Shown: in pieces, positions 3,248 through 25,445 of the stretch
Position numbering within the stretch: position 1 is the first letter of the stretch
How the letters are laid out: each line of letters starts with the position of its first letter
DNA from: a virus
Length of the DNA: 25,938 bases
IMG/VR virus record: IMGVR_UViG_3300034103_000630
Span: 1 to 25,938 of that record
Strand: one strand, 5' to 3'
Position numbers and translations under genes: made by a program
Notes under the pieces: model-generated
Told to the model about the DNA's origin: nothing
Databases searched by the model: none
The model's input: only the letters and a program-made list of their open reading frames with translations

Positions 3248-4234
3248 ATGCTGAGTATAAACGAATGGGATCCACTTAAAAAAGTTGTAGTGGGTCGAGC
3301 AGACCATGCACAAATACCTCCCTTAGATCCAAGTCACCAAGCAGTTAACTATGCTAACGTACAAGACTTGTCATCTATTCCTGTTGGTCCATATCCTCAA
3401 AGCGTGATTGATGAGGCCACCCAAGATCTAGAATTACTGGTCGAAGTTTTGCAGCAAAACGGTGTGGAAGTAATTAGACCAGATCCAAATCACAAACCAG
3501 GTTACTACAATTACTGTCCAAGGGATTCCTTTTTGGTTTACAAAGACACCATACTGGTAACGCCACAGCCAATCAGAAGTCGCGCCATGGACTATGAAAG
3601 TTTGGATAAACAATTTCATAACTTTGCTTTTGAAAACGATTACCGGTATTGTCGAGCTAATATTAAATTTCCTGATGAATTTTATAATCTTGGTGAACCA
3701 GAAAAACTAGCACTCAAGGAAACCTTGCCTGCGTTTGATGCCGCGAACATTCTTAGAGCCAATGATTATGTTTTTTATCTTGTAAGCAACACCGGCAATC
3801 AACAAGGCGCTCACTGGTTGCAAAGATTCTTAGATCGCAAGGCCACTGTCTATCCTATCAATGATATCTATAGTTACAGTCATATTGACAGCACCATAGC
3901 TTTACTGCGTGAAGGACTGATGTTACTGAATCCAGCTAGGATCAAAGACATCAATCAGTTGCCAAAACCCTTGCAGTCATGGGATGTGATATGGGCACCT
4001 GAACCAGTGGATATTGGGTATCATCCTGGATACAAAATGGCCAGTGAATGGATCAGTATGAACTTGCTGAGTATTAATCCCAATCTCGTGGTTTTGGAAG
4101 AACGCCAGACCAATTTACGTGATCTTCTTGAAAAGCACGGTATTGAATGTATAATGTTGCCTGGCAGACATCAACGAACACTTTCTGGCGGTTTTCATTG
4201 CGTGACTTTGGATTTAGAACGAGAACATAGTTGA
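3248..4234 (+). CDS. Amidinotransferase (glycine/inosamine-phosphate amidinotransferase family)
   Basis: A 328-residue protein that aligns by eye along its length with the AGAT/StrB1 family, which moves the amidino group of arginine to an amine acceptor. Family hallmarks are visible: the N-terminal EWDPLKKVVVG strand, CPRD with Asp93, FDAANILRAND with Asp173, SHID with His212, ASEWISMN near 265-272, and the C-terminal GGFHC with catalytic Cys318. These match the Asp, Asp, His and Cys catalytic set of human AGAT as I recall it. The acceptor cannot be read: glycine would give guanidinoacetate, an inosamine would give a guanidino-cyclitol as in streptomycin synthesis. It lies alone between two non-coding gaps, with no strong ribosome binding site. 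Related genes are, to my memory, present in some marine phages. Confidence 0.88.
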   Translation: MLSINEWDPLKKVVVGRADHAQIPPLDPSHQAVNYANVQDLSSIPVGPYPQSVIDEATQDLELLVEVLQQNGVEVIRPDPNHKPGYYNYCPRDSFLVYKDTILVTPQPIRSRAMDYESLDKQFHNFAFENDYRYCRANIKFPDEFYNLGEPEKLALKETLPAFDAANILRANDYVFYLVSNTGNQQGAHWLQRFLDRKATVYPINDIYSYSHIDSTIALLREGLMLLNPARIKDINQLPKPLQSWDVIWAPEPVDIGYHPGYKMASEWISMNLLSINPNLVVLEERQTNLRDLLEKHGIECIMLPGRHQRTLSGGFHCVTLDLEREHS

Positions 4235-12279: not shown

Positions 12280-13476
12280 ATGCGTAAATTATTTTACATG
12301 GGCTTAGAAAGCTACGAAGCCCGATATACTCTTCAACTCACTGAGTGGAACCGTAGAGTCTTTGATAAGCGTGGGCTTGATGTTGTATATGTTCCCGGCG
12401 AGACCATTGACGATAGCAAGAACATTGTTGTTGGACAAGTGTTAGATGCACATGGGCGCAGTTATTTTTCAATGAGCCAGATGATGAATCTGGTGCAAAT
12501 GATGCGTAATGGAGAAGTTACCAGTGGAGATGTTATCTACTTTGAGGACATGTTTCAGCCCGGTATCGAGAGCTTACCTTATATTCTTGATCAAATTCCT
12601 GCTGATCTCCGTCCTCGCATTTATGTTCGCTGTCTTGCTCAAGCCATTGACCCTGATGACTTCGTGCATGTCTGGGGCATGGCGTCGTGGATGAGCACAT
12701 ATGAGCGAATGGTAAATCATTTTGTCACAGGCGTGCTTGCCACAAATGAAGAAATGGTTGCTCATATGCGTATTGCAGGTTGGACTGCTCCTATCTATAA
12801 TATTTCTGGCCTAGCATTTGGCAAAGCAGAGGTTCTTGAACGCCTTGGTGGTGAACTTAAACCGTTTGACACTAGAACAAGGCGTGTTGGGTTTGCTGCA
12901 AGATTTGATCAAGAAAAACAACCAGGATTCTTTATGGATCTAGTTGAAATGTATCATGAACAATCCAACCAGACATGTGAGTTTGCAATTTTTCAAGGCG
13001 GCAAACTAAGATCAAATAATCCCGAGTACATTGATCGTGCCTTGCAATTACAAGCACAGGGCAAACTAAAGATATATGATAATCTAAAGAAAAATGATTA
13101 CTATGCTTTGCTCAATGATACTCGTGTGTTGTTTAATTGCGCCTTACAAGATTGGGTTAGCAACACGGTCAGTGAAGCAGACGCTCTTGGCTGCAATGTT
13201 TTATATCCTGCTTATAGGTCTTTCCCTGAAACTTTTGCAAATGATCCAAACAGGCTCTATATACCCTGGAGCATAGATGATGCATTTACCAAACTCCAAC
13301 TCTTATTGGAAAAGCCGCACCACAACATGGGACTTATTTCCGACTGGAACGATGCCACTGTGGATCGCATTGTTGATATACTCACTGGCATGGGCGAGCA
13401 ATGGAATAGATCGGGCAACCGCTATCGTGACCATGTTCCTGAAAACAAGTATCACGTTAGGAAAATAGAACCTTGA
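12280..13476 (+). CDS. GT-B fold glycosyltransferase
   Basis: A 398-residue protein with two Rossmann-like halves as in GT-B enzymes. The N-terminal half has RKLFYMGLESYEARYTLQL and DVIYFEDMFQPG. A linker runs into the donor-binding half, which begins RRVGFAARFDQEKQPG (201-216), the usual 'strand, loop, Lys/Arg' start of the GT4-type nucleotide-sugar domain. This half ends with DNLKKNDYYALL and SNTVSEADALGCNVLYP (294-310), matching the 'E...ALA.G.PV' signature. Phages use GT-B enzymes for virion proteins, host surface sugars or modified DNA bases; T4 DNA glucosyltransferases are GT-B. The acceptor cannot be told here. The next gene starts inside its stop. Confidence 0.75.
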   Translation: MRKLFYMGLESYEARYTLQLTEWNRRVFDKRGLDVVYVPGETIDDSKNIVVGQVLDAHGRSYFSMSQMMNLVQMMRNGEVTSGDVIYFEDMFQPGIESLPYILDQIPADLRPRIYVRCLAQAIDPDDFVHVWGMASWMSTYERMVNHFVTGVLATNEEMVAHMRIAGWTAPIYNISGLAFGKAEVLERLGGELKPFDTRTRRVGFAARFDQEKQPGFFMDLVEMYHEQSNQTCEFAIFQGGKLRSNNPEYIDRALQLQAQGKLKIYDNLKKNDYYALLNDTRVLFNCALQDWVSNTVSEADALGCNVLYPAYRSFPETFANDPNRLYIPWSIDDAFTKLQLLLEKPHHNMGLISDWNDATVDRIVDILTGMGEQWNRSGNRYRDHVPENKYHVRKIEP

Positions 13477-14075
13477 GTGGTTTTCAACAGTTGTTTGATT
13501 TTGAGAGTGCGCTGGCTGAATTCACCGGCGCACCTTATGTTGTGGTCACAGATTGTTGCACTCATGCCATAGAACTTGCAATGAGACACTACAATGTAGA
13601 ACATTGCAAGTTCACTGCCTACACTTATTTGAGTGTGGTCATGCTGATGCATCGTTTGAACATTGACTATGAACTCTTGGACCAACAGTGGCGGGGCGAA
13701 TATCAGTTTGAAAATACCAATATCTGGGATAGTGCAAGACGCTTGGAAAGAAATATGTATCGTCCCGGGCAGGTGCAATGTCTAAGTTTTGGCGTGAGCA
13801 AGCCTTTGCACCTTGGTCGCGGCGGTGCAATTTTGTTAGATGATGTTGAACATTATGATCAACTAAGACAAATGCGTAGCGATGGCAGAGACTTAAATTT
13901 TGCCCCATGGCAAACTCAAGAAACTTTTACAGTTGGTTATCATTATTGCCCAACATTGGAACTATGTGCTAACGGTATAGAAAAGTTAACAAATTTTCAA
14001 GGTGCAGTTACCACACATTCTTATCCTGACTGTAGAGATGTAAAAATATTCAAATCAAACACTGTCAAAAACTAG
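13473..14075 (+). CDS. Short DegT/DnrJ/EryC1/StrS-type aminotransferase
   Basis: A 200-residue protein starting at TTG, which overlaps the upstream stop (TTGA). It shows the N-terminal two-thirds of a PLP-dependent sugar aminotransferase: FESALAEFTGAPYVVVTDCCTHAIELAM (the 'SGTaALelAL' region), WDSARR (Asp86, which would hold the pyridine nitrogen), FGVSKPLHLGRGGAI (Lys110, the expected PLP lysine) and MRSDGRD. The C-terminal small domain of normal 370-400 residue members is nearly absent. I recall similarly short forms in marine phages, so this is probably a stable phage version, not a recent truncation. It would transaminate a ketosugar-nucleotide made with the nearby SDR enzyme. Confidence 0.8.
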   Translation: MSGFQQLFDFESALAEFTGAPYVVVTDCCTHAIELAMRHYNVEHCKFTAYTYLSVVMLMHRLNIDYELLDQQWRGEYQFENTNIWDSARRLERNMYRPGQVQCLSFGVSKPLHLGRGGAILLDDVEHYDQLRQMRSDGRDLNFAPWQTQETFTVGYHYCPTLELCANGIEKLTNFQGAVTTHSYPDCRDVKIFKSNTVKN

Positions 14076-14128: not shown

Positions 14129-14641
14129 ATGCACACACAAGGGCGAATAAAAGTCATTTGGAATCAAAAAGACTACCAACAGCTGGACTTTCAACTTGGT
14201 GTAAGAGATGAAATGTGCAAACGCCTGACTGTGGTAGATCCCAAAGACATGCACCGGTACAGCAGTGAACAGTTTAGTATGGATTATTATGATGCTGTTG
14301 AAATTGGCAACAAATTTATAAATCCAACTGATTTTTCTTATATCAAAGAACAAGGCTACTCTGTTCACAGAACCAGACCTGGACACATTGTTCCAGCACA
14401 CATGGATCACTATGCTGCATATCGTAAAAAGTTTAATCTTGAATCATCTAAAAAAATTATAAGAGTTTTGATTTTCTTAGAAGATTGGCAACCAGGCCAT
14501 TACTTAGACGTTGATGGTCATGGATTTGTAAATTGGCATGCAGGTGATTGGGTAAGTTGGCAAGGCACAGTTCCTCATAGACTGGCCAATATTGGTTCAG
14601 TGGATAGATACACATTTATTATAACAGGTATCACAGAATGA
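14129..14641 (+). CDS. 2OG-Fe(II) oxygenase-like protein (170 residues)
   Basis: The C-terminal half has the double-stranded beta-helix iron site: GHIVPAHMDHY (His91, Asp93), then IIRVLIFLEDWQPG, HAGDWVSWQG and VPHRLANIG (His150), with Arg160 in RYTFIITG positioned to bind 2-oxoglutarate. The length and motif spacing resemble aspartyl/asparaginyl hydroxylase-like and other phage oxygenases. The stop overlaps the start of the SDR gene by ATGA, so it belongs to the sugar block. The substrate could be a sugar, a lipid or a peptide side chain. The 53-bp gap before it holds a 14-codon open frame that I do not regard as a gene. Confidence 0.75.
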   Translation: MHTQGRIKVIWNQKDYQQLDFQLGVRDEMCKRLTVVDPKDMHRYSSEQFSMDYYDAVEIGNKFINPTDFSYIKEQGYSVHRTRPGHIVPAHMDHYAAYRKKFNLESSKKIIRVLIFLEDWQPGHYLDVDGHGFVNWHAGDWVSWQGTVPHRLANIGSVDRYTFIITGITE

Positions 14642-15558
14642 AAATTTTCGTAACCGGCGCAAGTGGATTTATTGGTTCAAACCTAATTCCAGAATTACTC
14701 AACAGAAGTCATGACGTACATAGTATGGAAGCTGATCTTCTAGATTTTGCTGCGGTAAAAAAAGAATTGCATGATTATGCTCCAGATGTAATAGTGCATC
14801 TTGCAGCTAGAACCGAAGTTGAAGCAAGTTTCTATGATCAAACTGGATTTAGTTCTGTGAACTATATTGGCACAGTGAATTTGATCGAAGCTGCTTGTGA
14901 ATTAAAAGAAAAACCATATTTTTGTTTTGCCAGCACCATGGAGGTTTATGGCTGGCAACCTATCAGTGATAGAGTTCAACTAGGCGGCCGTCCCACTGTG
15001 TTTGACAGTTTTGATGAAACAACTCCATGTCACCCCAATGCCCCATACGCTGTTGCTAAGTTTGCTTGTGAAAAATATCTTGAATATGCAGGCCGAACAA
15101 GAGGTATTGATTATGCTATTCTAAGACAGACCAATGCATATGGACGACAGGAAAACAACTTTTTTGCTACTGAGCAGTTTATCTATCAAATGTTAACCAA
15201 TGAAGAAAACGTTTACTTTGGTTACGACAAACCCTATAGAAACTTTATTCACAGACAAGACATAGTTAGTGCATGGGTACACATGATTTACTGTAGAGCG
15301 GCTTGTTCAGGTGGTGTGTTTACTATTGGACCTAACTTTCATGTGCAGATTCATGACCATGCAGAGAACATAGCAAAAGAACTTGGTTGGTCTGGTACCA
15401 TTAACTGGAATACTCGACCCCAGAGACCAGGAGAAATTTATTATCTGTGTAGCCGTCATGACAAATTCACCATGGCCACAGGGTGGGTACCAAGAGTAAA
15501 CTACGAAGACGGTATCCGCGAAACTGTGGAAATTTGGCGACAAAAGTTAAATGCGTAA
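14638..15558 (+). CDS. NAD-dependent epimerase/dehydratase (extended SDR)
   Basis: A 306-residue extended short-chain dehydrogenase. The nucleotide-binding motif is GASGFIG (7-13), with VIVHLAART near 51-59. The catalytic set is CFASTMEVYG (Ser99/Thr100) and YAVAK (Tyr137, Lys141). Such proteins convert nucleotide sugars, as UDP-glucose 4-epimerase or dTDP-glucose 4,6-dehydratase do. The exact reaction cannot be fixed by eye. An ATGA overlap with the upstream oxygenase and an 8-bp overlap with the downstream radical SAM gene show one operon. Together with the DegT-like aminotransferase it suggests synthesis of an aminosugar nucleotide or similar. Confidence 0.9.
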   Translation: MKIFVTGASGFIGSNLIPELLNRSHDVHSMEADLLDFAAVKKELHDYAPDVIVHLAARTEVEASFYDQTGFSSVNYIGTVNLIEAACELKEKPYFCFASTMEVYGWQPISDRVQLGGRPTVFDSFDETTPCHPNAPYAVAKFACEKYLEYAGRTRGIDYAILRQTNAYGRQENNFFATEQFIYQMLTNEENVYFGYDKPYRNFIHRQDIVSAWVHMIYCRAACSGGVFTIGPNFHVQIHDHAENIAKELGWSGTINWNTRPQRPGEIYYLCSRHDKFTMATGWVPRVNYEDGIRETVEIWRQKLNA

Positions 15559-17314
15559 TGTATACCTGTTTCAGCCGCAGTATGCAGTTGAATTTAGACA
15601 GGAAGTAAATTACTGGTTGCCCTATAGTGCTGGCTGCTTATGGAGTTATGCCAGTCAATTCAATCACTTAACCGACAACTTTAAACTAGATGGTTTGTTT
15701 TTCAAACGCGATCCAGTTGCTGTTGTATTAGATCAAATTCACGACCCTGGTTTGGTGGGTTTCAGTTGTTATGTTTGGAACGAACAATACTGCCTCGCAA
15801 TTGCTGAACATATTAAACAACGCTGGCCAAACTGTGTAATTGTTTTTGGTGGAACACAGGTCAGCTTTCGTACTCTTGATCATGAGTTTATTGATACAAT
15901 TGTATTAGGTGAAGGCGAACAGGCATTTGTAAGCATATTAGAGGCGGTGCAAAATAATCTTGCGGTTGAATCCACTTACACCGCTGCTCGTATTCAAAAT
16001 CTTGACATACCCAGTCCTTATCTAACAGGTGTATTTGACAATATCATAGCGGACAATGCAAATGCTATATGGGCAATGACATTAGAAACCAATCGTGGTT
16101 GCCCCTATGCCTGTACCTTTTGTGATTGGGGAGGCGTAACCTATAGCAAAGTCAAAAAATTTGGCTTAGAGCGTGTGGCAGCAGAACTAGATTGGGCGTC
16201 AAGGAACAAAGTTGCATATATCTTTTGCGCTGACGCAAACTTTGGTATAATGAAAGACCGAGACATGGAAATTGCCAAACTCATGCGGCAGGCAGCAGAC
16301 CATGGTAGCATTGAGGCAATTAATTTGCAGTATGCCAAGAACTCCACAGAAACTGTTTTTGATATTGCAAAAATAATAGGTCCGTATGGTCGTGGTATCA
16401 CTGTGAGTGTGCAAAGCATGAACCAACCTACTTTGGAATCTATCAAACGTGAAAATTTAAAAACCAACAACATACAACATTTGATGCAGTTGAGTCAAGA
16501 GTATCAAATTGGTACCTATACGGAAGTCATACTTGGTTTGCCTTTGGAAACCACGGATTCTTGGAAACAAGGTCTAGCTGATTTATTAGAGCTCGGTCAA
16601 CATCAAAGCATAGACGTTTGGTTTACTCAACTACTTGAAAACAGTGAACTTGCCAGCAATCAGAGTCGTCGCAAATATGGCATTAAAACTATTTGGGTTA
16701 AAGACTATTTGAATCTTGATCAAACTGTGGACACAGTACCTGAATACACAGAAATAGTGAACAGTACCAATACAATGCCAATACAGGACATGATTGATTG
16801 TTACATGTATGCCTGGATGATATTGCAAATTCATGTGGCAGGGTATAGTCAAATCATTGCCAGATACGCTAGACAGTTTAATGGTTTGCATTATAGAAGT
16901 TTTTATGATCAACTTTACACCTGTATACAACAAGATGCACTTTTGGGACCTCATTTTTTGCGTATAAAAGATCTTGTGTCAACATATCTACACACCGGCA
17001 AACTTCCTGATGGAATAACTGGTGGCCATGCGTTGCACACTCAGTCGTATCATTTTCTTTATCAAAATAGGTTGCATCTAATACAACTTTGTGCTAACAT
17101 CATAAACATAGACAAATCATTAGAACAGTTACAAACTGCGTTTATCTTTGACCGGCACAAACTTGAACCATGCACAGTTGAAACTGATTTCAATATTTTC
17201 ACAGGAATCAGAGAAAAAACTAAGTATCAAATTCAGACAAAAACATCCGACGTTGTGGATGATCTTTACACTATAAGGAGGAAAGGGTTGCTCAAAAACC
17301 TTTTAACAGTATGA
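15551..17314 (+). CDS. B12-binding-domain radical SAM enzyme
   Basis: A 587-residue protein with two domains. The N-terminal 135 residues match cobalamin-binding domains of radical SAM proteins: LVGFSCYVWNEQYCLAIAE, CVIVFGGTQVSF and IDTIVLGEGEQAF. The DxHxxG cobalt-ligating motif is not seen, as is usual in this class. The radical SAM core has RGCPYACTFCDWGG, a CX3CX2C cluster at Cys184, Cys188 and Cys191. After the core comes a 250-residue C-terminal region of unknown role. Family members methylate unactivated carbons or rearrange substrates. Its operon with an SDR enzyme and a sugar-type oxygenase suggests a carbohydrate substrate. It needs SAM, which metK at the right edge could help supply. 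It overlaps both neighbours. Confidence 0.88.
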   Translation: MRNVYLFQPQYAVEFRQEVNYWLPYSAGCLWSYASQFNHLTDNFKLDGLFFKRDPVAVVLDQIHDPGLVGFSCYVWNEQYCLAIAEHIKQRWPNCVIVFGGTQVSFRTLDHEFIDTIVLGEGEQAFVSILEAVQNNLAVESTYTAARIQNLDIPSPYLTGVFDNIIADNANAIWAMTLETNRGCPYACTFCDWGGVTYSKVKKFGLERVAAELDWASRNKVAYIFCADANFGIMKDRDMEIAKLMRQAADHGSIEAINLQYAKNSTETVFDIAKIIGPYGRGITVSVQSMNQPTLESIKRENLKTNNIQHLMQLSQEYQIGTYTEVILGLPLETTDSWKQGLADLLELGQHQSIDVWFTQLLENSELASNQSRRKYGIKTIWVKDYLNLDQTVDTVPEYTEIVNSTNTMPIQDMIDCYMYAWMILQIHVAGYSQIIARYARQFNGLHYRSFYDQLYTCIQQDALLGPHFLRIKDLVSTYLHTGKLPDGITGGHALHTQSYHFLYQNRLHLIQLCANIINIDKSLEQLQTAFIFDRHKLEPCTVETDFNIFTGIREKTKYQIQTKTSDVVDDLYTIRRKGLLKNLLTV

Positions 17315-18459
17315 CACTATCTAAAACACAAGCGCCGTTTGACAACAAAACACTCAACTATGATTTACAAGAGCATCCTTTGCCTGCTATAATTTTACGA
17401 GAAATACGTAAGTATGTTCCAAATGCTTCTAGGTTGGATACTTTGCATGAGGTGATACCCCCTAGTCAGGCCAATGCCATTGCCAACAAAGTGAGTCATG
17501 ATTTATTGAAGTGTGAGTTTTATGATCATTATGATCAAATTGTACAAGACACAGTGGTGCCGCAGCTGGGCTGCGATGTACTGATTCAAAAGCATCCTAA
17601 TCTAAGATTCTTATTTCCTGATCAAGACAAGCACGGTGCTGTGTTGCTGTTTCATCAAGGACGATGGGTAGGCAATGGTCTAGGCTTGCGTACAATCTGG
17701 ATGCCATTCACTGACTGTTATGATTCTAACTCTATGCAGATCATGAACTTGGATGTCAGCAGAGAAGTAACAAGGAGAGCTGTTGCTGAAAAGTGGAGTT
17801 ATGAAGAGCTACAGGATGTATGTGTTCGAGAATCATGGCCAATCACACTCAAGCCTGGTCAAGCACACTTGTTTTTCCAAGAGCACATTCATGGCAATAT
17901 TCCAAATCGCACCAACAAGACTCGTGTAAGCATTGACATTCGACTACTGACCAGAGACGGGCAACCACATCGCAAATGGCCAGGGGCATACTTCCGAAAA
18001 CTGTTTGATAGAGAATATGGTCGTGCTGTGCCAATTGATGAGTCCAAAGAAAACGTTGTTACCTATGCTGAATACGAAGGTATTAAGACAAAGAATATTG
18101 ATTTGCATTTCCAAACACTTGTGGTCAAAGGCTATTGCAGCAAGCGTGGATATACTTTCCCGTATCAGCATGGTGATAACGAAGGTTTGAATCATAGTCA
18201 TTTAGATCATTTGATTAATCACGCCAACACCGATCATATCATTATGTTTTCAATTTTCAGTTTACCAGACAACACTGAATATCGCAATCGGTTGATGCGA
18301 GATGCTTTGGCAAAGAAATGTGTGTTGCACTTTGCCAACGAAGAACTTGTTTTACAAAGCGAAAAGGATTTAGAGCATATTGAGTATTTGCGTACCTTTA
18401 CCAATGACTGGAGTTCTCCAGTTCAGCAGTTAAGAGACGAGTTAAAACTTGACAACTGA
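17311..18459 (+). CDS. Two-domain protein: StrG-like 2OG-Fe(II) oxygenase fused to a sporadic-carbohydrate-cluster domain
   Basis: A 382-residue protein overlapping the radical SAM stop by ATGA. Residues about 40-225 resemble the 2OG-Fe(II) oxygenases that NCBI names 'sporadic carbohydrate cluster' (StrG-like): HPNLRFLFPDQ, LLFHQGRWVGNG, IWMPFTDC, and EHIHGNIPNRTNKTRVSIDIR with His194 and Arg205. The first iron motif reads H115-Q-G117, so the expected Asp is Gly. Residues about 255-370 resemble the partner family (TIGR04323-type, LIC12192-like): KNIDLHFQTLVVKGYCSKRG, DHIIMFSIFSLPDN and CVLHFANEEL. These two are, as I recall, usually separate genes. Family names are from memory. A carbohydrate-tailoring role is inferred. 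Confidence 0.65.
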   Translation: MTLSKTQAPFDNKTLNYDLQEHPLPAIILREIRKYVPNASRLDTLHEVIPPSQANAIANKVSHDLLKCEFYDHYDQIVQDTVVPQLGCDVLIQKHPNLRFLFPDQDKHGAVLLFHQGRWVGNGLGLRTIWMPFTDCYDSNSMQIMNLDVSREVTRRAVAEKWSYEELQDVCVRESWPITLKPGQAHLFFQEHIHGNIPNRTNKTRVSIDIRLLTRDGQPHRKWPGAYFRKLFDREYGRAVPIDESKENVVTYAEYEGIKTKNIDLHFQTLVVKGYCSKRGYTFPYQHGDNEGLNHSHLDHLINHANTDHIIMFSIFSLPDNTEYRNRLMRDALAKKCVLHFANEELVLQSEKDLEHIEYLRTFTNDWSSPVQQLRDELKLDN

Positions 18460-18518: not shown

Positions 18519-19259
18519 ATGGTTTACAACAAAGCTTATATCAGTAACGATGTAGAAACAACATCCTCAATCAATGGGTATCCCACTATCAGTGAGGTTA
18601 TCAGAAAACGTATCAATGAAGCAAATGCAAGATTTCATGCCAATGATAACATAGCAGAATTTATTGAAAGTGAAGAAGAAATTGATGCATTGGTTGATGA
18701 AGTAGCAGAACAATTCAAAGGCGTTCTAAACAGTCTTGTAATTGACACTGACAATGATCACAACACACAAGACACTGCACGTCGAGTGGCTAAAATGTTT
18801 GTACGTGAAACCTTTAGCGGGAGGTATCGCAATGTTCCAAAAGTTACAGCTTTCCCTAACATGGGCTATAAGAGTCTATATACTACTGGTCCTATTAGTA
18901 TTCGCAGTACCTGTGCTCACCACTTCCAAAACATTGTTGGTAGATGTTGGGTTGGGATCGTACCTCAAGACGAAGTTATTGGTCTTAGCAAGTTCAATAG
19001 ACTAGTACATCATATCTGCGAGCGACCGCAAATCCAAGAAGAGATGACCACACAAATTGCAGATGCACTGAAAAAATATGCAAAGACTGAACATATTGCA
19101 GTTGTGGTCAAAGCTGAACATCATTGCATGACCATGCGTGGGGTACGTGAGCATGAATCAGATATGACCACAGCAATTATGCTAGGTGCGTTCAAAGAAG
19201 ATTCAGCTCTAAGACAAGAGTTTTATGATCTGTGTTTGAGTATGAAAGGACATGGTTAA
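18519..19259 (+). CDS. folE: GTP cyclohydrolase I
   Basis: A 246-residue enzyme that opens GTP to 7,8-dihydroneopterin triphosphate, the entry to both folate and 7-deazaguanine synthesis. The family segments are clear: DTARRVAKMF, STCAHHFQNIVGRC (Cys132, His134, His135), IGLSKFNRLV, ERPQIQEEMTTQIADAL and AEHHCMTMRGVR (Cys203). The zinc ligands Cys and His are kept, but the usual CEHH reads CAHH. It has an N-terminal extension of about 60 residues of low complexity and acidic character. GGAG precedes the ATG. Own strong promoter. With queD, queE and dpdA in the window, preQ0-type base synthesis is the likely purpose. Confidence 0.95.
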   Translation: MVYNKAYISNDVETTSSINGYPTISEVIRKRINEANARFHANDNIAEFIESEEEIDALVDEVAEQFKGVLNSLVIDTDNDHNTQDTARRVAKMFVRETFSGRYRNVPKVTAFPNMGYKSLYTTGPISIRSTCAHHFQNIVGRCWVGIVPQDEVIGLSKFNRLVHHICERPQIQEEMTTQIADALKKYAKTEHIAVVVKAEHHCMTMRGVREHESDMTTAIMLGAFKEDSALRQEFYDLCLSMKGHG

Positions 19260-19261
19260 TT

Positions 19262-19357
19262 TTGTTAGCCGGGCTTTGGGGACTGTGCAAACTTATTCTC
19301 ATAGCCATTCCCACGTTGTATTGTGTTTGGTGGTTAACACAAAGACATGATGTATAA
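19262..19357 (+). CDS. Candidate 31-residue single-pass membrane peptide
   Basis: A frame from TTG 19262 to TAA 19355-19357 exactly fills the gap between folE and the next ATG at 19358. It encodes one hydrophobic segment, LAGLWGLCKLILIAIPTLY, followed by CVWWLTQRHDV, with positive charge after the segment. AAAGGA lies 11 nt upstream of the TTG. The composition is typical of small phage membrane peptides. The non-ATG start and small size keep confidence moderate. Confidence 0.45.
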   Translation: MLAGLWGLCKLILIAIPTLYCVWWLTQRHDV

Positions 19358-19582
19358 ATGCACAAACTAGTTTGGATCAAGAAGCCTCCGAGTTTGATAA
19401 TATATGCCGCACTTAGGTATGACCATAATGATGCTGTTACACAAACTGGCTTGCGTGAAGATGATATAGCGCCAGTACAATTTTGGTGCGAAGAACACAA
19501 GTGCGGTAGGCGAATGAGTTTTAACATGTTTAAGTTTCGCACCAAAGCAGAATTATCAATGTTCTTATTAAAATGGGGATAA
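19358..19582 (+). CDS. Small hypothetical protein
   Basis: A 74-residue protein whose ATG follows the preceding small frame's stop directly. It contains KKPPSLIIYAALRYD, an acidic middle with two Cys-His-Cys residues (FWCEEHKCGRR), and a Lys-rich C-terminus ending FLLKWG. The C-x3-H-x-C arrangement could bind a metal, but there are too few ligands to be sure. Function unknown. Confidence 0.55.
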   Translation: MHKLVWIKKPPSLIIYAALRYDHNDAVTQTGLREDDIAPVQFWCEEHKCGRRMSFNMFKFRTKAELSMFLLKWG

Positions 19583-19586
19583 TTGT

Positions 19587-19817
19587 ATGAGAAAATCCGC
19601 AGCCGAACTCACAAAAGATATTATTGATCGAGCTCAATCCATGCGTAGTTACAAAGTGAAAATGCGTGTGGATGATGGCTGGGTACCTACCGGACCTGTG
19701 CCGTTTGATATTCATATCAAGAATGGTATCGCCACTCTTACTGTGATTTCTAACAGCGAATCTGACGCAAAAAATCAAGCCAGTGTTTATATGGAAAGTG
19801 ACGATTTCTATGAATGA
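19587..19817 (+). CDS. Small hypothetical protein
   Basis: A 76-residue protein with a basic N-terminal helix (MRKSAAELTKDIIDRAQSM) followed by beta strands (YKVKMRVDD, PFDIHIKNGIATLTVISN) and an acidic end. Its stop overlaps the HIT-family gene by 8 bp. I do not recognise it. Confidence 0.6.
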   Translation: MRKSAAELTKDIIDRAQSMRSYKVKMRVDDGWVPTGPVPFDIHIKNGIATLTVISNSESDAKNQASVYMESDDFYE

Positions 19818-20190
19818 CTTATCAACAGCTCAAAAAATGGGAGTGGCTCCTTGGGACGACTTGGTACAAGAAGACTTTCATATAGCAGTGTTTAGAGACA
19901 AGTATCCAGTTAGTGTTGGTCATCTTTTGTTTGTGCCAAAATACAACACAGAAGAAGTCATACGTGATGCATTCTATGATGCACTGCGTTATGGAAATGA
20001 ACAGGTATCACAAGGCAAATGGGATGCTTTTAACATTGGCATGAACTGTGGTGAGGTCGCAGGACAAACTGTGAATTGGCCACATGTGCATCTAATTCCT
20101 AGGTATCGCGGGGATGTTGAAGATCCAATTGGTGGTGTGCGAAATACCATCCCTGGTAAAGGCAACTATCGCAAAACAGAGCATGCTTGA
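19810..20190 (+). CDS. HIT-family nucleotide hydrolase/transferase
   Basis: The preferred start is ATG 19810, overlapping the previous stop; a start at 19783 would add nine residues inside the upstream gene. The 126-residue product has the HIT pattern: FHIAVFRDKYPVSVGHLLFVPK, NIGMNCGEVAGQTVNWPHVHLIPR and GDVEDPIGGVR. In the histidine triad the first His is replaced by Trp (W-x-H-x-H, His92 and His94), while the catalytic middle His is kept. Relatives of this type hydrolyse dinucleoside polyphosphates such as Ap4A or nucleotidyl conjugates. It would fit the nucleotide-handling genes around it. The next gene overlaps its stop. Confidence 0.85.
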   Translation: MNDLSTAQKMGVAPWDDLVQEDFHIAVFRDKYPVSVGHLLFVPKYNTEEVIRDAFYDALRYGNEQVSQGKWDAFNIGMNCGEVAGQTVNWPHVHLIPRYRGDVEDPIGGVRNTIPGKGNYRKTEHA

Positions 20191-21001
20191 AGTACACAAC
20201 AATGTTCTAGATCAAGGTGCTGTGCAGGATTTGGTGTCTTATTTTTTTGCACAGGACGGCAGTGAAGACTCTAGGCCAGACGTGACATCAAAGTCGCCAA
20301 TTTGGAATCAAACTATCTGGCCACAACATCATGTAAAAAAACTTCTTGATCAAATTTTACAAGAGCCGTACGAAGTTGAAGAGTGTTTGTTTCATTTAAG
20401 CAACTATAGGTATCAGCTGCATGCAGACACAAACTGGGGCGAGCAGCACCAAAAGCTTTACAAAGTAGTTCTTATTCCGTTGCACATTCAAGGTCCAGTT
20501 GGAACTTGTTTTTTCAAGAACACCTGGACAGGACAAAGTGCAAAGTTTACCAAAGCCAAGTATTTGCCCTGGAGTTACACTATCAAAGATAAAAACAATC
20601 AAGACTTTTTTGTAGAAGATTTACGTGAGTTTCTATCATTGTTGCAAACACCAGAACAATTACCAAACTTTGATGTCACTGAACAACTTGTGCAAAGTAT
20701 CCAACACTTGATAGAATCGCGCTCTCCCAAAGCCAACAAAACAAAACTGGCCGGTAGACATGTTTGGGTGTCTGATTATGCTGATGTCGGCGGGATAACT
20801 GATAAAGATTTTCCTGAACACACAAGAACACAGTATTGCAGTCATATTGCCAGTGAGGATCTACATGGATTTACGTTTGATAAGTTTGTACCATGGGAAC
20901 CAGGTAGCGTAATGGTTTTTGATCGCATTCAAATTCATAGCTCAGGCAATGGTGAATTGAACAAACTAGGACTAACTATTTTCACAAATAAAATCAGTTG
21001 A
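20183..21001 (+). CDS. 2OG-Fe(II) oxygenase-like protein (272 residues)
   Basis: The preferred start is ATG 20183, overlapping the HIT stop by 8 bp; the frame is open upstream to 20114, but that start lies deep inside the HIT gene. The iron site is readable: FHLSNYRYQLHADTNWG (His80, Asp82), KVVLIPLHIQG, and near the C-terminus GSVMVFDRIQIHSSGNG (His252) followed by LGLTIFT. The usual Arg for 2-oxoglutarate is not obvious; Lys261 may replace it. A large insert (about 112-225) separates the halves and includes AGRHVWVSDYADVGG. Substrate unknown; it may be a small molecule, nucleic acid or protein. It precedes the queD promoter region. Confidence 0.7.
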   Translation: MLEVHNNVLDQGAVQDLVSYFFAQDGSEDSRPDVTSKSPIWNQTIWPQHHVKKLLDQILQEPYEVEECLFHLSNYRYQLHADTNWGEQHQKLYKVVLIPLHIQGPVGTCFFKNTWTGQSAKFTKAKYLPWSYTIKDKNNQDFFVEDLREFLSLLQTPEQLPNFDVTEQLVQSIQHLIESRSPKANKTKLAGRHVWVSDYADVGGITDKDFPEHTRTQYCSHIASEDLHGFTFDKFVPWEPGSVMVFDRIQIHSSGNGELNKLGLTIFTNKIS

Positions 21002-21050
21002 TAAATAATTTTTTTACACTTCATAGCGGCCTTTCTGGCATTCATCCCGC

Positions 21051-21080
21051 TTTACAAATTCTGCAAGCCTATGCTAAAAT
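21051..21080 (+). promoter_or_regulatory. Candidate sigma70-type promoter for queD
   Basis: TTTACA (21051-21056), 18 nt, TAAAAT (21075-21080). Both hexamers match 5 of 6. The transcript would start near 21087, only about 13 nt before the ATG, so the leader would hold little beyond the AGGAG ribosome binding site. Confidence 0.5.
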
Positions 21081-21090
21081 TTAACATAGG
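21068..21090 (+). promoter_or_regulatory. Inverted repeat over the queD -10 box and ribosome binding site
   Basis: CCTATG (21068-21073) and CATAGG (21085-21090) are exact reverse complements with an 11-nt AT-rich spacer that contains the -10 box. The right arm runs into the AGGAG ribosome binding site (21088-21092). If the promoter above is used, the dyad would act as a DNA operator. If transcription comes from upstream, it would form an RNA hairpin that masks the ribosome binding site. Confidence 0.4.
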
Positions 21091-21099
21091 AGAACTACA

Positions 21100-21618
21100 A
21101 TGCTTTATCTTAACGAAATACAACAACCTCGCACTTACAAATATACCAGTACCAAAGAATATCACGATGCATTTCCTTGTGCATATCGTCAATGGCGTGC
21201 TGATAGTCACTGTAATCTAATTCATGGCTATAGTTTTAGCATGAAGTTTTATTTTGGCACAGACAATCTGGATGTGCGTAATTGGGCTGCTGATTACGGC
21301 GGTTTGAAAGAACTAAAGAAGATATTAGAAGATCAATTTGATCATACACTGTTGGTAGCACAAGATGATCCAGAGCTAGAAACATTCAAAATGTTGCAAA
21401 ACCGGAAGATGGCCAAACTCACAATTTTACCAAGGCTGGGTTGTGAGGGTTTAGCCGACATGCTTTACAAATATGTCAATGGCGTGTATATTCCTGATAT
21501 GTGGGGGCCAGGTGAAGCAGAAAGACTTTGGTGTTTTAGGGTAGAAGTACGTGAAACACAGAGCAACATGGCTTTCCGTGAAGGCCACCGTGAATGGAAT
21601 GAGGATCTATTTGTATAA
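21100..21618 (+). CDS. queD: 6-carboxy-tetrahydropterin synthase, QueD family
   Basis: A 172-residue PTPS-family enzyme acting after FolE: dihydroneopterin triphosphate to 6-carboxy-tetrahydropterin. Visible elements in order: FPCAYRQW (25-32), DSHCNLIHGYSFSMKF (35-50, Cys38, His42), AADYGGLKELK (63-73) in the place of 'DF.LK', FDHTLL (80-85), GCEGLADML (114-122) and FRVEVRET (146-153, Glu152). The canonical HGH zinc motif reads HGY, and the first zinc His of E. coli QueD is Tyr, while an extra His37 lies nearby. I recall the same pattern in cyanophage QueD annotations. AGGAG precedes the ATG; own promoter region. It has insertions compared with the 120-residue bacterial form. Confidence 0.85.
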   Translation: MLYLNEIQQPRTYKYTSTKEYHDAFPCAYRQWRADSHCNLIHGYSFSMKFYFGTDNLDVRNWAADYGGLKELKKILEDQFDHTLLVAQDDPELETFKMLQNRKMAKLTILPRLGCEGLADMLYKYVNGVYIPDMWGPGEAERLWCFRVEVRETQSNMAFREGHREWNEDLFV

Positions 21619-21629
21619 GGAAAAATTCT

Positions 21630-22472
21630 ATGGAACAAGAGTCGTTTAAATTTGATATTGCGGTTTTATTACCAACTCGTGGTCGAACCACAGCACTCAC
21701 AAGAAGTGTTATGACTTTGATCAACAGGGTAAGAAATCTAGACAAAATGCAAATCCTACTGGGTTTTGATGACGATGACACAGTGGGACTCGCACATTTT
21801 CAAAAAGAACTTGAGCCTATTCTCAAAGACAGAAAGGTTCATTACAAAGCGTTGAGTTTCGCGCCAGTGGGCTATATTAGGCTTAATGAATATGTAACTG
21901 CGCTGGCTCGTGCAGCAGACAAACCAAGATGGTTTATGTTCTGGAATGACGACGCTGTGATGGAAAGTCAGAACTGGGATGAGGAAATTTGCAAGTACAA
22001 CAACCAGTTCAAAGTGTTGGCAGTGCATACTCACAGAGAACATCCTTACAGTATCTTTCCAATTGTACCAAGCAAATGGTTAGAAATTTTTGGTTACATG
22101 AGTCCGCATCAACTCAGTGACGCATGGTTTAGTCAGGTTGCCTATATGCTGGATATCTGGGAAAGAATTCCAGTTTGGGTCGAGCATGACAGATTTGATC
22201 TAACAGGCAACAACAATGACGAAACCTATGCCAATAGACCACAATTGGAAAATCAACCCAACAATCCAGAAGACTTTCATAGTTCCAAATGGCATTACAA
22301 ACGAATCTATGACGCCAACACATTAGCAAATTATCTACGTGCAAATGGTGCAGACATGACTTGGTGGGACAACGTGCAAACTGGTAAACAAAATCCTTGG
22401 CAGAAACTTGAAGCCAATGATATCAATAAACAAATGACTCAAAGTAGAACCTCAATGACTTATGGCCAATAA
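21630..22472 (+). CDS. GT-A-like (family 2 type) glycosyltransferase
   Basis: A 280-residue protein beginning with the GT2 pattern: IAVLLPTRGRTTALTRSV (10-27), ILLGFDDDDTVG (42-53) and FMFWNDDAVMESQNWDEEI (102-120), where NDD stands for the metal-binding DxD. Later motifs include WFSQVAYML and ERIPVWVEHDRFD. The C-terminal 60 residues are polar and may recognise the acceptor. AAGGA precedes the ATG by 8 nt. The stop overlaps the methyltransferase gene. The sugar donor and acceptor are unknown; glycosylation of DNA, virion or a lipid/polysaccharide are all possible. Confidence 0.75.
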   Translation: MEQESFKFDIAVLLPTRGRTTALTRSVMTLINRVRNLDKMQILLGFDDDDTVGLAHFQKELEPILKDRKVHYKALSFAPVGYIRLNEYVTALARAADKPRWFMFWNDDAVMESQNWDEEICKYNNQFKVLAVHTHREHPYSIFPIVPSKWLEIFGYMSPHQLSDAWFSQVAYMLDIWERIPVWVEHDRFDLTGNNNDETYANRPQLENQPNNPEDFHSSKWHYKRIYDANTLANYLRANGADMTWWDNVQTGKQNPWQKLEANDINKQMTQSRTSMTYGQ

Positions 22473-23256
22473 AACTCTCAAAGAAAAGATAGTAGACTAC
22501 TGGGATCGGCAACCTTGTAATATCAAGCACAGTCAACGTGAACTAGGTACACCAGAATACTTCGAAGAAGTCACCGCTAGACGTTACAAGGTTGAGCCAC
22601 ACATACTTGACTTTGCACAGTTTCATCGTTGGCAAGGCAAGCGTATACTAGAAATTGGCTGTGGCATTGGCACTGACGCAGAACAATTTGTAAGACACGG
22701 TGCAGAGTACGTGGGCATTGACATCAGCGATAGCAGTTTAAACATTTGTCGTGATAGATTCAACACCTTGGGATTGAGAGGCGAATTTTTAAATATTAAC
22801 TTACTTGACCCAGCAGACACCATTCCGGCGCAACATCTTGGTATGTTTGATTTGGTTTATAGCTACGGTGTAATACATCATTCGCCAGACATTGCACAGC
22901 ACATTCAAGAGATTCACAAGCTAGTAACACCCGGCGGCGAGTTTCGTTTCATGGTTTATGCCAAGAACTCATGGAAGTATGCCATGATTCAAAAAGGGCT
23001 TGATCAGTTTGAGGCACAAGCTGAATGTCCTTATGCAGAAGCATTTACCAAAGATGACATTGGTCAACTACTTGATGGCATGTTTGAAATAGAACGTATT
23101 AGACAAGATCATTGTTTTATGTACAATGTGCCTTTGTACAAACAAGGTCAATATCAACTTGAACCCTGGTTTGAAGCCATGCCTCCAACCATGCGCGAAG
23201 CTGTGCGTGAGTATCTTGGATGGCACTTATTAGTGAAAGCGAGAAAAAATGCGTAA
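22462..23256 (+). CDS. Class I SAM-dependent methyltransferase
   Basis: A 264-residue enzyme with an intact SAM site: RILEIGCGIGTDAEQF (motif I, 61-76), AEYVGIDISDSSLNIC (acidic ribose ligand Asp87), DLVYSYGVIHHSPD and LVTPGGEFRFMVY. The N-terminal YWDRQPCNIKHS segment followed by EYFEEVTARRYKVEPHI is a form I recall from small-molecule methyltransferases in surface-sugar and natural-product clusters. It overlaps the glycosyltransferase by 11 bp and the phosphoribosyltransferase by 8 bp. A carbohydrate substrate is more likely than DNA, as no DPPY-type motif is present. Confidence 0.88.
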   Translation: MANKTLKEKIVDYWDRQPCNIKHSQRELGTPEYFEEVTARRYKVEPHILDFAQFHRWQGKRILEIGCGIGTDAEQFVRHGAEYVGIDISDSSLNICRDRFNTLGLRGEFLNINLLDPADTIPAQHLGMFDLVYSYGVIHHSPDIAQHIQEIHKLVTPGGEFRFMVYAKNSWKYAMIQKGLDQFEAQAECPYAEAFTKDDIGQLLDGMFEIERIRQDHCFMYNVPLYKQGQYQLEPWFEAMPPTMREAVREYLGWHLLVKARKNA

Positions 23257-23737
23257 GGTGTTTTTTAATTGGAAACAGGTCCAAGGTCATTGTTTGGAAC
23301 TAGCCAGACAAATTGCCAAAGATCAATGGGTACCTGACTATGTCGTGGGTATCACTAGAGGTGGAGCTACTCCGGCAGTGCTTATCAGCCAGTATCTTGG
23401 CGCAAACTGCGAAATGCTCAAAGTAAGTCTAAGAGATGGCGGCAACGTTGAAAGTAACTGCTGGATGGCTGAAGATGCATTTGAAGGCAAGAAACTTTTG
23501 ATTGTAGATGATATCAATGACAGCGGTGCTACCATTGAATGGATCAAACAAGATTGGAAATCGTCTTGTCATCCCAAGTCTGAACGATGGGATGAGGTCT
23601 GGGGACAGAACATACGCTTTGCTGTATTGGTCAACAACGAAGCAAGCAAAGCTGATGTTTCTTATTCATCTATATCAATCAACAAACTAGACGACCCACA
23701 ATGGATCGTTTTTCCCTGGGAGGAATGGTGGAAGTAA
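23249..23737 (+). CDS. Purine-type phosphoribosyltransferase
   Basis: A 162-residue type I phosphoribosyltransferase. The PRPP loop is KLLIVDDINDSGATIEWI (82-99, Asp87 and Asp88), and the pyrophosphate loop region is VVGITRGGATPAVLIS (32-47). The C-terminal DDPQWIVFPWEEWW resembles the 'WIVFPWE' ending of xanthine-guanine phosphoribosyltransferase. It would join a base to PRPP, giving a nucleotide. Candidate bases are guanine, hypoxanthine, xanthine or, speculatively, a 7-deazapurine. Similar genes are, as I recall, frequent in cyanophages. It overlaps genes on both sides. Confidence 0.85.
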   Translation: MRKVFFNWKQVQGHCLELARQIAKDQWVPDYVVGITRGGATPAVLISQYLGANCEMLKVSLRDGGNVESNCWMAEDAFEGKKLLIVDDINDSGATIEWIKQDWKSSCHPKSERWDEVWGQNIRFAVLVNNEASKADVSYSSISINKLDDPQWIVFPWEEWWK

Positions 23738-24102
23738 ATCCATTTAAAGATCAAGAAAAATTCATGCGAGCCTGCGATCAAAGCGTAGACGAATCAAACG
23801 GTGAACAGTTCAAGATGTACTGTAACTTGATCGAAGAAGAATATCAAGAACTGAAAACCGCAGTTGCCGACGATGACAAAACTGAATGCCTTGATGCTCT
23901 CGTAGATATCCTAGTTGTTACTATTGGCGCCATACACAGCATGGGTGCTGACGCTGAAGGTGCTTGGAACGAAGTGATGCGTACCAATCTTGCCAAAATT
24001 GATTCAGTGACAGGCAAAGTACGCAAACGTGCGGACGGCAAAGTTCTAAAACCAGATGGTTGGCAACCACCAAGTCTTGAAAAGTTTGTGTTTAAAACTT
24101 GA
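23725..24102 (+). CDS. mazG: MazG-like nucleotide pyrophosphohydrolase
   Basis: A 125-residue all-helical protein from ATG 23725. Other possible starts are ATG 23701, which would add eight residues inside the upstream gene, and GTG 23728; GGGAGGA just before 23725 makes 23725-23728 the likely zone. The metal site is visible: NLIEEEYQELKTAV (the EExxE helix) and ECLDALVDILVVTIGAI (the ExxD helix), followed by a C-terminal KIDSVTGKVRKRADGK segment. MazG enzymes split (d)NTPs to NMPs, and in cyanophages the protein is thought to affect the host nucleotide state. Here it shares an operon with a phosphoribosyltransferase. Confidence 0.88.
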   Translation: MVEVNPFKDQEKFMRACDQSVDESNGEQFKMYCNLIEEEYQELKTAVADDDKTECLDALVDILVVTIGAIHSMGADAEGAWNEVMRTNLAKIDSVTGKVRKRADGKVLKPDGWQPPSLEKFVFKT

Positions 24103-24127
24103 CAATATCATTGCAACTGTGTACAAT
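24099..24127 (+). promoter_or_regulatory. Candidate sigma70 promoter for the cupin-queE-metK unit
   Basis: TTGACA (24099-24104), 17 nt, TACAAT (24122-24127). The -35 is perfect and the -10 matches 5 of 6. As at folE, the preceding bases read AAAACT and the -35 overlaps the upstream gene's end. The leader is short, with GGAG 7 nt before the ATG at 24145. Confidence 0.7.
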
Positions 24128-24144
24128 TACGCTTTGGAGTAACA

Positions 24145-24609
24145 ATGTTTAAAACATTTTTAAACTGGTTAGACAAAATAGGTCGTAAAAGAATTGTCTA
24201 TGATCGAATAGAAGATGCCCCGTATCTAGAACGTTACTATCTGTTCCTTACAGATAGAACCAAGTTTCCTTTTAATATTTTTCTACACAAATTTCTAAAA
24301 GGAGACATTGATGATGTGCATGATCATCCATGGCCTTATGCTACATTGATACTACGAGGTGGATACTTTGAGTATGTGCCAGTGTTTGATGATCAAGGAC
24401 GCAAAATCAGTGAACAGTGTTTCTGGCGTGGTCCTGGACATTTTAGAATATGCAGTGCCAACAGCTTTCATCGCATTGAACTTAAACCCGATGTAGAATG
24501 TTGGACTTTGTTCATGCCAGGACCTAAACAACGTGAATGGGGATTTTTGGTTCGTAATCGATGGGTACAATGGCAACAGTATCTCGCACAACGCAAAGGA
24601 CAGACATGA
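24145..24609 (+). CDS. Cupin-like metal-binding protein
   Basis: A 154-residue beta-barrel protein. Cupin motif 1 is KGDIDDVHDHPWPYATLILRGGYFEY (split here as VHDHPW at 58-63, His59 and His61), and cupin motif 2 is SANSFHRIEL with His109, followed by WTLFMPGPKQREWGF. The arrangement resembles cysteine-dioxygenase-like and sugar-related cupins and small phage cupins. Iron or another metal is likely; the reaction is unknown. It is the first gene of the unit that carries queE, and its stop forms ATGA with the queE start, so a role in pterin, deazapurine or sugar chemistry is possible. Confidence 0.7.
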   Translation: MFKTFLNWLDKIGRKRIVYDRIEDAPYLERYYLFLTDRTKFPFNIFLHKFLKGDIDDVHDHPWPYATLILRGGYFEYVPVFDDQGRKISEQCFWRGPGHFRICSANSFHRIELKPDVECWTLFMPGPKQREWGFLVRNRWVQWQQYLAQRKGQT

Positions 24610-25445
24610 AAATAAAAGTGGCAGAATTATTTTATAGTATACAAGGTGAAGGACGCTACATGGGTGTTCCTTCTATTTTCTTACGCACATTTGGATGCAA
24701 CTTTAAATGTGCAGGCTTTGGTATGCCAAGAGGACAACTCAGTAGTGAAGCCAACAATGTTGATCCTGCAAAATACAGCAAATACGAAGAACTTCCCTTG
24801 GTATCTACCGGCTGTGACAGTTATGCGTCATGGGATCCAAGGTTTAAAGATCTCAGTCCTGTGTTAACAGTAGATGCTATCGCAGATAGAATTATGGAAT
24901 TACTGCCCAACAATAAATGGCGAGGCGTTCACTTAGTGATAACAGGCGGTGAGCCACTGCTAGGGTGGCAACGTAGTTATCCTGACTTACTGAGTCACAG
25001 CAAGTTTAAAAAATTAAAAGATATCACATTTGAAACCAACGGCACACAAAAAATTTCTAAAGATTTTGAGAAGTACTTGGAAAAGTGGACACACAAACAT
25101 GGATATCATAATCTGACATTCAGCGTTAGTCCAAAACTTAGCGTAAGTGGAGAAAAAAGAGAAGAAGCAATTCGCCCTGACATCATAAGACAGTATGAAG
25201 ATCTAGGACATACCTATCTTAAGTTTGTGGTTGCATCAAACGATGACGTAGATGAAGCACTGGAAGTTATCGAATTGTATAGAAAAGAAGGTTTTGATGG
25301 TAACGTGTATCTAATGCCTGTTGGTGGTGTTGAAAGTGTTTACACACTCAACAATCGTACTGTGGCAGAGCTTGCGATGAAACATGGATTACGTTACAGC
25401 GATAGACTACAAGTGCCATTATTCAAAAATGAATGGGGAACTTAA
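24606..25445 (+). CDS. queE: 7-carboxy-7-deazaguanine synthase, QueE (radical SAM)
   Basis: The start is ATG 24606, overlapping the cupin stop (ATGA); the open frame extends 15 codons upstream inside the cupin gene. The 279-residue protein has FYSIQGEGRYMGVPSIFLRTFGCNFKC (split: SIQGEGRYMG 11-20; Cys31, Cys35), then GCDSYASWD with Cys70, VITGGEPLLGW, ETNGT and FSVSPKLSVSG. These are QueE signatures: the SIQGEG start, the GGEP motif and the SPK motif. The third cluster Cys comes 34 residues after the second instead of 2, because an insert GFGMPRGQ...LPLVSTG intervenes. I recall this insert from other phage QueE proteins. It converts 6-carboxy-tetrahydropterin to 7-carboxy-7-deazaguanine using SAM. 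Confidence 0.93.
   Translation: MKIKVAELFYSIQGEGRYMGVPSIFLRTFGCNFKCAGFGMPRGQLSSEANNVDPAKYSKYEELPLVSTGCDSYASWDPRFKDLSPVLTVDAIADRIMELLPNNKWRGVHLVITGGEPLLGWQRSYPDLLSHSKFKKLKDITFETNGTQKISKDFEKYLEKWTHKHGYHNLTFSVSPKLSVSGEKREEAIRPDIIRQYEDLGHTYLKFVVASNDDVDEALEVIELYRKEGFDGNVYLMPVGGVESVYTLNNRTVAELAMKHGLRYSDRLQVPLFKNEWGT

Follow-up and report, generated by a model that had tools for sequence, protein, structure and literature searches.

In the Fe(II)- and 2-oxoglutarate-dependent (Fe/2OG) halogenases, the carboxylate of the metal-binding triad has been replaced by Ala or Gly, which lets a halide bind the iron (PMC8407142; PMC12346261), and the HxG/A motif serves in mining for such enzymes (PMC11186838). 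The CurA halogenase domain, SyrB2 and CytC3 are examples, with a PhyH-like fold and Gly or Ala in place of the Asp/Glu of the hydroxylases (PMC8407142). Human AspH has an HxG...H site yet is a hydroxylase, an exception among those characterised, and FIH with the same D-to-G change retains some activity (PMC8252765). Among phages, a flavin-dependent viral halogenase has been described from a marine cyanophage (Nat. Chem. 2019, PMC6875430, as cited in PMC10452541), and potential flavin-dependent halogenase genes are present in 20 of 153 cyanophages (PMC10452541). Here we describe a gene in a 25,938-base stretch of DNA (the window), which is the whole of IMG/VR virus record IMGVR_UViG_3300034103_000630 and also carries a gene for a family B DNA polymerase and genes of queuosine type. 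The product of the gene, P0001, joins a putative Fe/2OG domain with an HxG motif to a second domain, and its two halves are related to the NCBIfam families TIGR04324 (SpoChoClust_2) and TIGR04323 (SpoChoClust_1). Among 5.39 million open papers searched for the 'sporadic carbohydrate cluster' after which these families are named, not one was found. As far as we have checked, the two families were known by name only, with no earlier description of their fusion, of the change to HxG, of the spread among phages or of how the second domain folds.

The preliminary description of this DNA proposed that one polypeptide unites the two families. This fusion proved to be real, on the evidence of the open reading frame (ORF), of matches to both families and of its recurrence elsewhere. 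The TIGR04324 model matched residues 29–232 of P0001 (E 7.6e-28, 97.7 bits) and the TIGR04323 model residues 252–360 (E 2.2e-17, 63.1 bits), so that the search with these two models gave a significant match for each half; the peptides GYCSKRG, MFSIFSLPDN and VLHFANEEL were all located in the translation. The second match exceeds the curated cut-off of its family (55 bits) and the first falls short (150 bits); the first half is, by its profile score, a TIGR04324 homologue outside the curated subfamily. Across 48 non-redundant fused proteins, TIGR04324 matched all 48 and TIGR04323 matched 45. When the stand-alone families, collected independently, were compared with the fusion profile against profile, residues 42–231 matched TIGR04324 (E 2.6e-20) and residues 252–362 matched TIGR04323 (E 1.8e-19). 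PF05721 (PhyH) matched 18 of the 48 homologues (best E 1.1e-7) and did not match P0001 itself.

The first half had been labelled a StrG-like 2OG-Fe(II) oxygenase, but the HxD carboxylate of such an oxygenase is missing. Every one of the 105 fused sequences that span the site, the window included, reads HQG (H115-Q-G117), and the distal H194 and R205 are invariant wherever they are covered; the replacement of HxD/E by HxG or HxA beside a retained distal His is the signature of the Fe/2OG halogenases. In the stand-alone TIGR04324 proteins, H125, D127, H204 and R215 are invariant (29/29 in the alignment), and the alignment of the fused and stand-alone profiles is ungapped through the motif. The two groups have both His, the Arg, the HGN motif and a carbohydrate gene context in common, and differ in HxG versus HxD. 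Broader TIGR04324 matches in the Pseudomonadota and in the class of Roseivirga have HxD wherever the motif can be read, except in the two fused genes. The patterns used in the first scan did not contain the HxG motif, and its conservation as an artefact of the search could be rejected on that ground. Judged from the sequence, the fused first half should not be labelled a plain 2OG oxygenase by default.

In a maximum-likelihood tree, all 32 fused sequences used fall into one clade of their own (100/99), and a single D-to-G change suffices, with the caveat that the deep outgroup joins are weak. The fused proteins diverge to about 33% identity, yet the Gly is fixed. Furthermore, the columns that are conserved within each group but differ between fused and stand-alone proteins include 105, 117, 128, 134, 140 and 209, where, in addition to G117, the fused proteins have Q105, T128, T134, N140 and D209. 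Because the His and Arg residues never vary whereas a number of other positions have changed in concert, the pattern appears to reflect a changed active site or activity, not decay.

The AlphaFold model of P0001, built with 48 sequences, has a predicted local distance difference test (pLDDT) score of 95.8 and a predicted template modelling (pTM) score of 0.92. In a Foldseek comparison with the PDB, its best match was the CurA halogenase domain (3nnj/3nnl, E 1e-8); SptF, ThoJ, GriE, PtlH and SnoK/SnoN were also matched, and SyrB2 lay within the top 50. These matches to a predicted model set the fold but do not separate halogenase from hydroxylase. A search of PDB sequences with P0001 alone found nothing significant; the best sequence-profile match in the PDB was PtlH (E 0.012), the 1-deoxypentalenic acid 11-beta-hydroxylase, which has the same fold and the same Asp at His+15 as the fusion but is a canonical HxD hydroxylase with a terpenoid substrate. 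Sequence identity to CurA, SyrB2 and CytC3 is low, about 15%, and those enzymes act on carrier-bound groups (PMC8407142).

We favour the reading that the fused gene encodes an Fe/2OG enzyme that modifies glycans and whose halide site is open, perhaps a sugar halogenase. The gene would be the single-chain version of a two-gene module that modifies a glycan sugar. In its N-terminal PhyH-type domain, both His and the 2OG Arg have been kept and the carboxylate ligand has been lost, which would open an iron site able to take a halide; a sugar or sugar nucleotide would then most likely undergo radical C–H halogenation (Cl or Br). The C-terminal domain, a serine-recombinase fold that appears to have no recombinase chemistry, would most likely act on that molecule too, either by binding or presenting it as the substrate or by performing a linked step. 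The sugar would probably be made by the upstream short-chain dehydrogenase/reductase (SDR), the aminotransferase-like enzyme and, in this phage, the radical S-adenosylmethionine (SAM) enzyme; the gene context alone suggests the class of the substrate. That the fused enzyme halogenates a sugar or sugar nucleotide, and is thus a candidate viral sugar halogenase, we put at a probability of roughly 40%.

Several observations weigh against halogenation. HxG is no proof of it, given that AspH hydroxylates with an HxG...H site and that D-to-G FIH is partly active (PMC8252765); the hydroxylases SptF, PtlH and GriE nearly equal CurA in structural score; and the chlorinating-enzyme model TIGR01762 matched one of the 48 members (E 0.0035) and not P0001. 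The first two of these observations speak for a two-histidine Fe/2OG hydroxylase resembling AspH (or a desaturase or epimerase), in which water would occupy the vacant site and oxygenation of the sugar would continue, and the closest HxD relatives are presumed to be hydroxylases as well. We regard this as almost as probable as halogenation. However, AspH is exceptional among characterised hydroxylases in this respect (PMC8252765), and the Gly of the fused proteins has been fixed across deep divergence together with the other changes. Moreover, the HxG...H arrangement is present in P0001 but neither it nor any of the 48 homologues matched the AspH family of Pfam. It is improbable that the N-terminal domain is a pseudo-oxygenase without productive iron, kept for binding sugar or for scaffolding the second domain or partner enzymes; a metal ligand has been lost, and fusion could have made one half structural, but the invariance of both His and the 2OG Arg in the fused proteins would be unexpected after the metal chemistry had gone. 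An ordinary oxygenase whose iron carboxylate is supplied from elsewhere in the chain is very unlikely. Where the stand-alone family has Asn, the fused proteins have an invariant D209, but an Asp at this place coexists with an intact HxD in PtlH, in the Azospirillum StrG and in L197, and D209 was rejected as a replacement ligand. Apart from D209, acidic residues are invariant at just two positions, D75, in a helix far upstream in the sequence, and E344, in the second domain. Finally, although the fusion comes from metagenomic contigs only, with no isolate, we give next to no credence to its being an artefact of sequencing or assembly or the product of a chance read-through, since it is found in more than 100 loci, many of them divergent, as well as on a 957-kb Roseivirga contig, and since the fused sequences in the tree form one clade.

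At first described as no more than a separate, uncharacterised family, the second domain can now be assigned the fold of a serine-recombinase catalytic domain. With the model of a stand-alone TIGR04323 protein (pLDDT 92.8), Foldseek placed serine-recombinase catalytic domains first, TP901-1 integrase being the best (3bvp, E 4.3e-4), and these matches, gamma-delta resolvase included, had probabilities of about 1 and TM-scores of about 0.5–0.7 when normalised by the query. Independently, the fused model matched viral resolvases and serine recombinases. The serine recombinases share with the TIGR04323 domain a fold but not a sequence-family match: Pfam Resolvase did not match any of 28 stand-alone TIGR04323 members at E values up to 1, and neither the recombinase DRxxR motif nor the conserved nucleophilic Ser was visible in the alignments on inspection by eye. 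From the models we infer that the TIGR04323 domain is a reused, non-recombining serine-recombinase fold. The stand-alone proteins and the C-terminal half of the fusion share conserved residues (Q, E, S, R and E). Neither StrG nor non-catalytic serine-recombinase folds gave any result in literature searches.

In alphaproteobacteria, TIGR04323 is encoded by its own gene directly downstream of TIGR04324, whereas in the phages it is the C-terminal half of one chain. Within the class of the Pelagibacter metagenome-assembled genome (alphaproteobacteria), TIGR04323 exceeded its cut-off in 28 of 385 sampled genomes, and TIGR04324 lay directly upstream on the same strand in all 27 genomes that have both, one pair running into a contig end. 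In the 26 pairs that were measured, with automatic assignment of start codons, the gaps lie between -17 and +28 nt, and 16 of the pairs overlap. The phage fusion keeps the gene order of the bacterial pair. Because the bacterial halves are adjacent, often overlapping and in the same order, the fusion joins an existing gene pair, and the comparison shows shared ancestry with such a pair. By the classical fusion argument, adjacency in the same order also speaks for a linked function. The preliminary description went further and took the fusion to mean a common substrate for the two halves; linked function is supported by these data, and the halves may share a substrate. The possibility it raised of separate neighbouring genes in bacteria, beside the same SDR and radical SAM genes, was borne out in that the pair is adjacent, SDR genes are nearby, and genes for B12-binding radical SAM proteins lie near some pairs. 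In the phylum of Roseivirga (395 sampled genomes), the TIGR04323 match was more than marginal only in the Roseivirga genome.

The setting of the stand-alone pair gives some indication of its role. At one alphaproteobacterial locus (L185:1114-15331), the pair is found together with genes for flagellin, an HldE-like sugar kinase/nucleotidyltransferase, an SIS isomerase, a split transketolase, methyltransferases and a GT41 glycosyltransferase. This gene content points to flagellin glycosylation, and a flagellin glycan pathway is likely for TIGR04324 and TIGR04323. Homologues of the large TPR/GT41 protein were found in five of 11 neighbourhoods.

The fusion is widespread in uncultured viruses. A first scan of IMG/VR with P0001 gave 38 loci, and a profile scan gave at least 332 matching stretches, the best 80 of them being retained; 105 homologous fused loci were read in all, two of them from genome contigs. 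One of these two is a Pelagibacter-binned contig that is phage-like by its ORFs. The other is the 957-kb chromosomal Roseivirga contig, where the fused gene (L043:7971-9104) is near ABC-2 transporter and SDR genes in a polysaccharide locus; this HxG gene nests among viral sequences in the tree, and its probable source is a phage or something closely related to one. None of the 50,697 phage records searched with three divergent fused queries gave a match, and a plasmid search with P0001 returned a StrG-like match only. Stand-alone versions are rare in viral contigs (four loci, all with HxD). In one group of phages (loci L112, L121, L122, L126, L128, L135, L136 and L137), the fusion stands directly before a gene of about 1,900 codons and not in a sugar cluster; the L126 copy of this long gene encodes an S74 chaperone domain of tail-fibre type.

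Table 1. The fused gene, its domains and key residues, and neighbouring genes, in coordinates of the 25,938-base window. Counts refer to 60 non-redundant fused loci; many of these are cut by contig ends and the counts are lower bounds. DSBH, double-stranded beta-helix.
Feature	Position	Strand	Basis
Fused gene, TIGR04324-like Fe/2OG domain plus TIGR04323 domain, 382 aa (P0001)	17311..18459	+	ORF, ATG start, NCBIfam matches, AlphaFold
N-terminal domain, aa 29-232, PhyH-superfamily DSBH, TIGR04324-related	17395..18006	+	NCBIfam, Pfam in homologues, Foldseek
H115-Q116-G117, proximal metal-site motif HxG (HxD in stand-alone relatives)	17653..17661	+	Invariant in fused proteins
H194, distal metal-binding His (HGN)	17890..17892	+	Invariant in fused and stand-alone proteins
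R205 (His+11), presumed 2OG-binding Arg	17923..17925	+	Invariant in both groups; role inferred from PhyH family
C-terminal domain, aa 252-360, TIGR04323, serine-recombinase-like fold	18064..18390	+	NCBIfam, profile-profile, Foldseek
B12-binding radical SAM protein, KedN5-like but below KedN5 family cut-off	15551..17314	+	Profile match; near fusion in 11/60 loci
Extended SDR, sugar-nucleotide dehydratase/epimerase type	14638..15558	+	Profile matches; homologues near fusion in 30/60 loci
Probable second DSBH oxygenase, own HxD...H motif	14129..14641	+	Homologue alignment; near fusion in 21/60 loci
Half-size DegT-like aminotransferase	13473..14075	+	PF01041 E 7e-14; near fusion in 16/60 loci
Glycosyltransferase-like protein, weak match	12280..13476	+	PF00534 23.1 bits, cut-off 26.4 not reached; near fusion in 13/60 loci
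FolE-like GTP cyclohydrolase I, start of adjoining 7-deazaguanine genes	18519..19259	+	Profile matches
Amidinotransferase/arginine-deiminase-like protein	3248-4234		Similar proteins beside fusion in 17/60 loci

The genes around the fusion (Table 1) make a common sugar pathway likely, one that varies between phages. In the window, the radical SAM gene overlaps the fused gene by 4 nt, and the same 4-nt overlap recurs in L002, L004, L007, L009, L010 and L111. The suggestion that three steps might be linked through this overlap holds only for a subset of the fused loci, since a radical SAM gene was found in 11 of 60 of them, against an SDR gene in 30. The 170-aa product of the gene ahead of the SDR matched no Pfam family above its cut-off, and is probably an undescribed small DSBH oxygenase beside the HxG one. 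The DegT-like homologues are 189–217 aa long in most loci and keep an IWDSAR-type motif and a Lys-Gly-rich motif of pyridoxal phosphate type. The amidinotransferase-like gene was kept out of the core module, as it lies about 13 kb from the fusion in the window; its counterparts beside other fusions hint at a guanidino group in some products. Downstream, the region from 18519 to 25445 holds FolE, QueD, QueE and phosphoribosyltransferase-like genes, with a cysteine-dioxygenase-like gene among them. The FolE, QueD and QueE genes suggest a 7-deazaguanine pathway, whose function is probably separate from that of the fusion module.

In its fullest form, our proposal is that a large clade of uncultured phages carries a non-heme Fe(II)/2OG carbohydrate halogenase, which arose when Asp became Gly in a glycan oxygenase and is now tied to a partner with a reused serine-recombinase fold, a proposal which we think possible but rather doubtful as a whole. 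If it is true, no non-heme iron halogenase encoded by a phage would, as far as we have found, have been known before, and this one would act on sugars; the halogenase of the cyanophage is likewise borne by a marine phage but is a flavin enzyme of another kind. The natural HxD sister family would then be available for comparing the effects of the D-to-G switch. Even without halogenation, two uncharacterised NCBIfam families gain a shared function, being fused in phages and adjacent in bacteria. Furthermore, the stand-alone pair is placed in glycan loci, one of them beside flagellin and a GT41 glycosyltransferase, and in TIGR04323 the serine-recombinase fold would be found outside DNA recombination.

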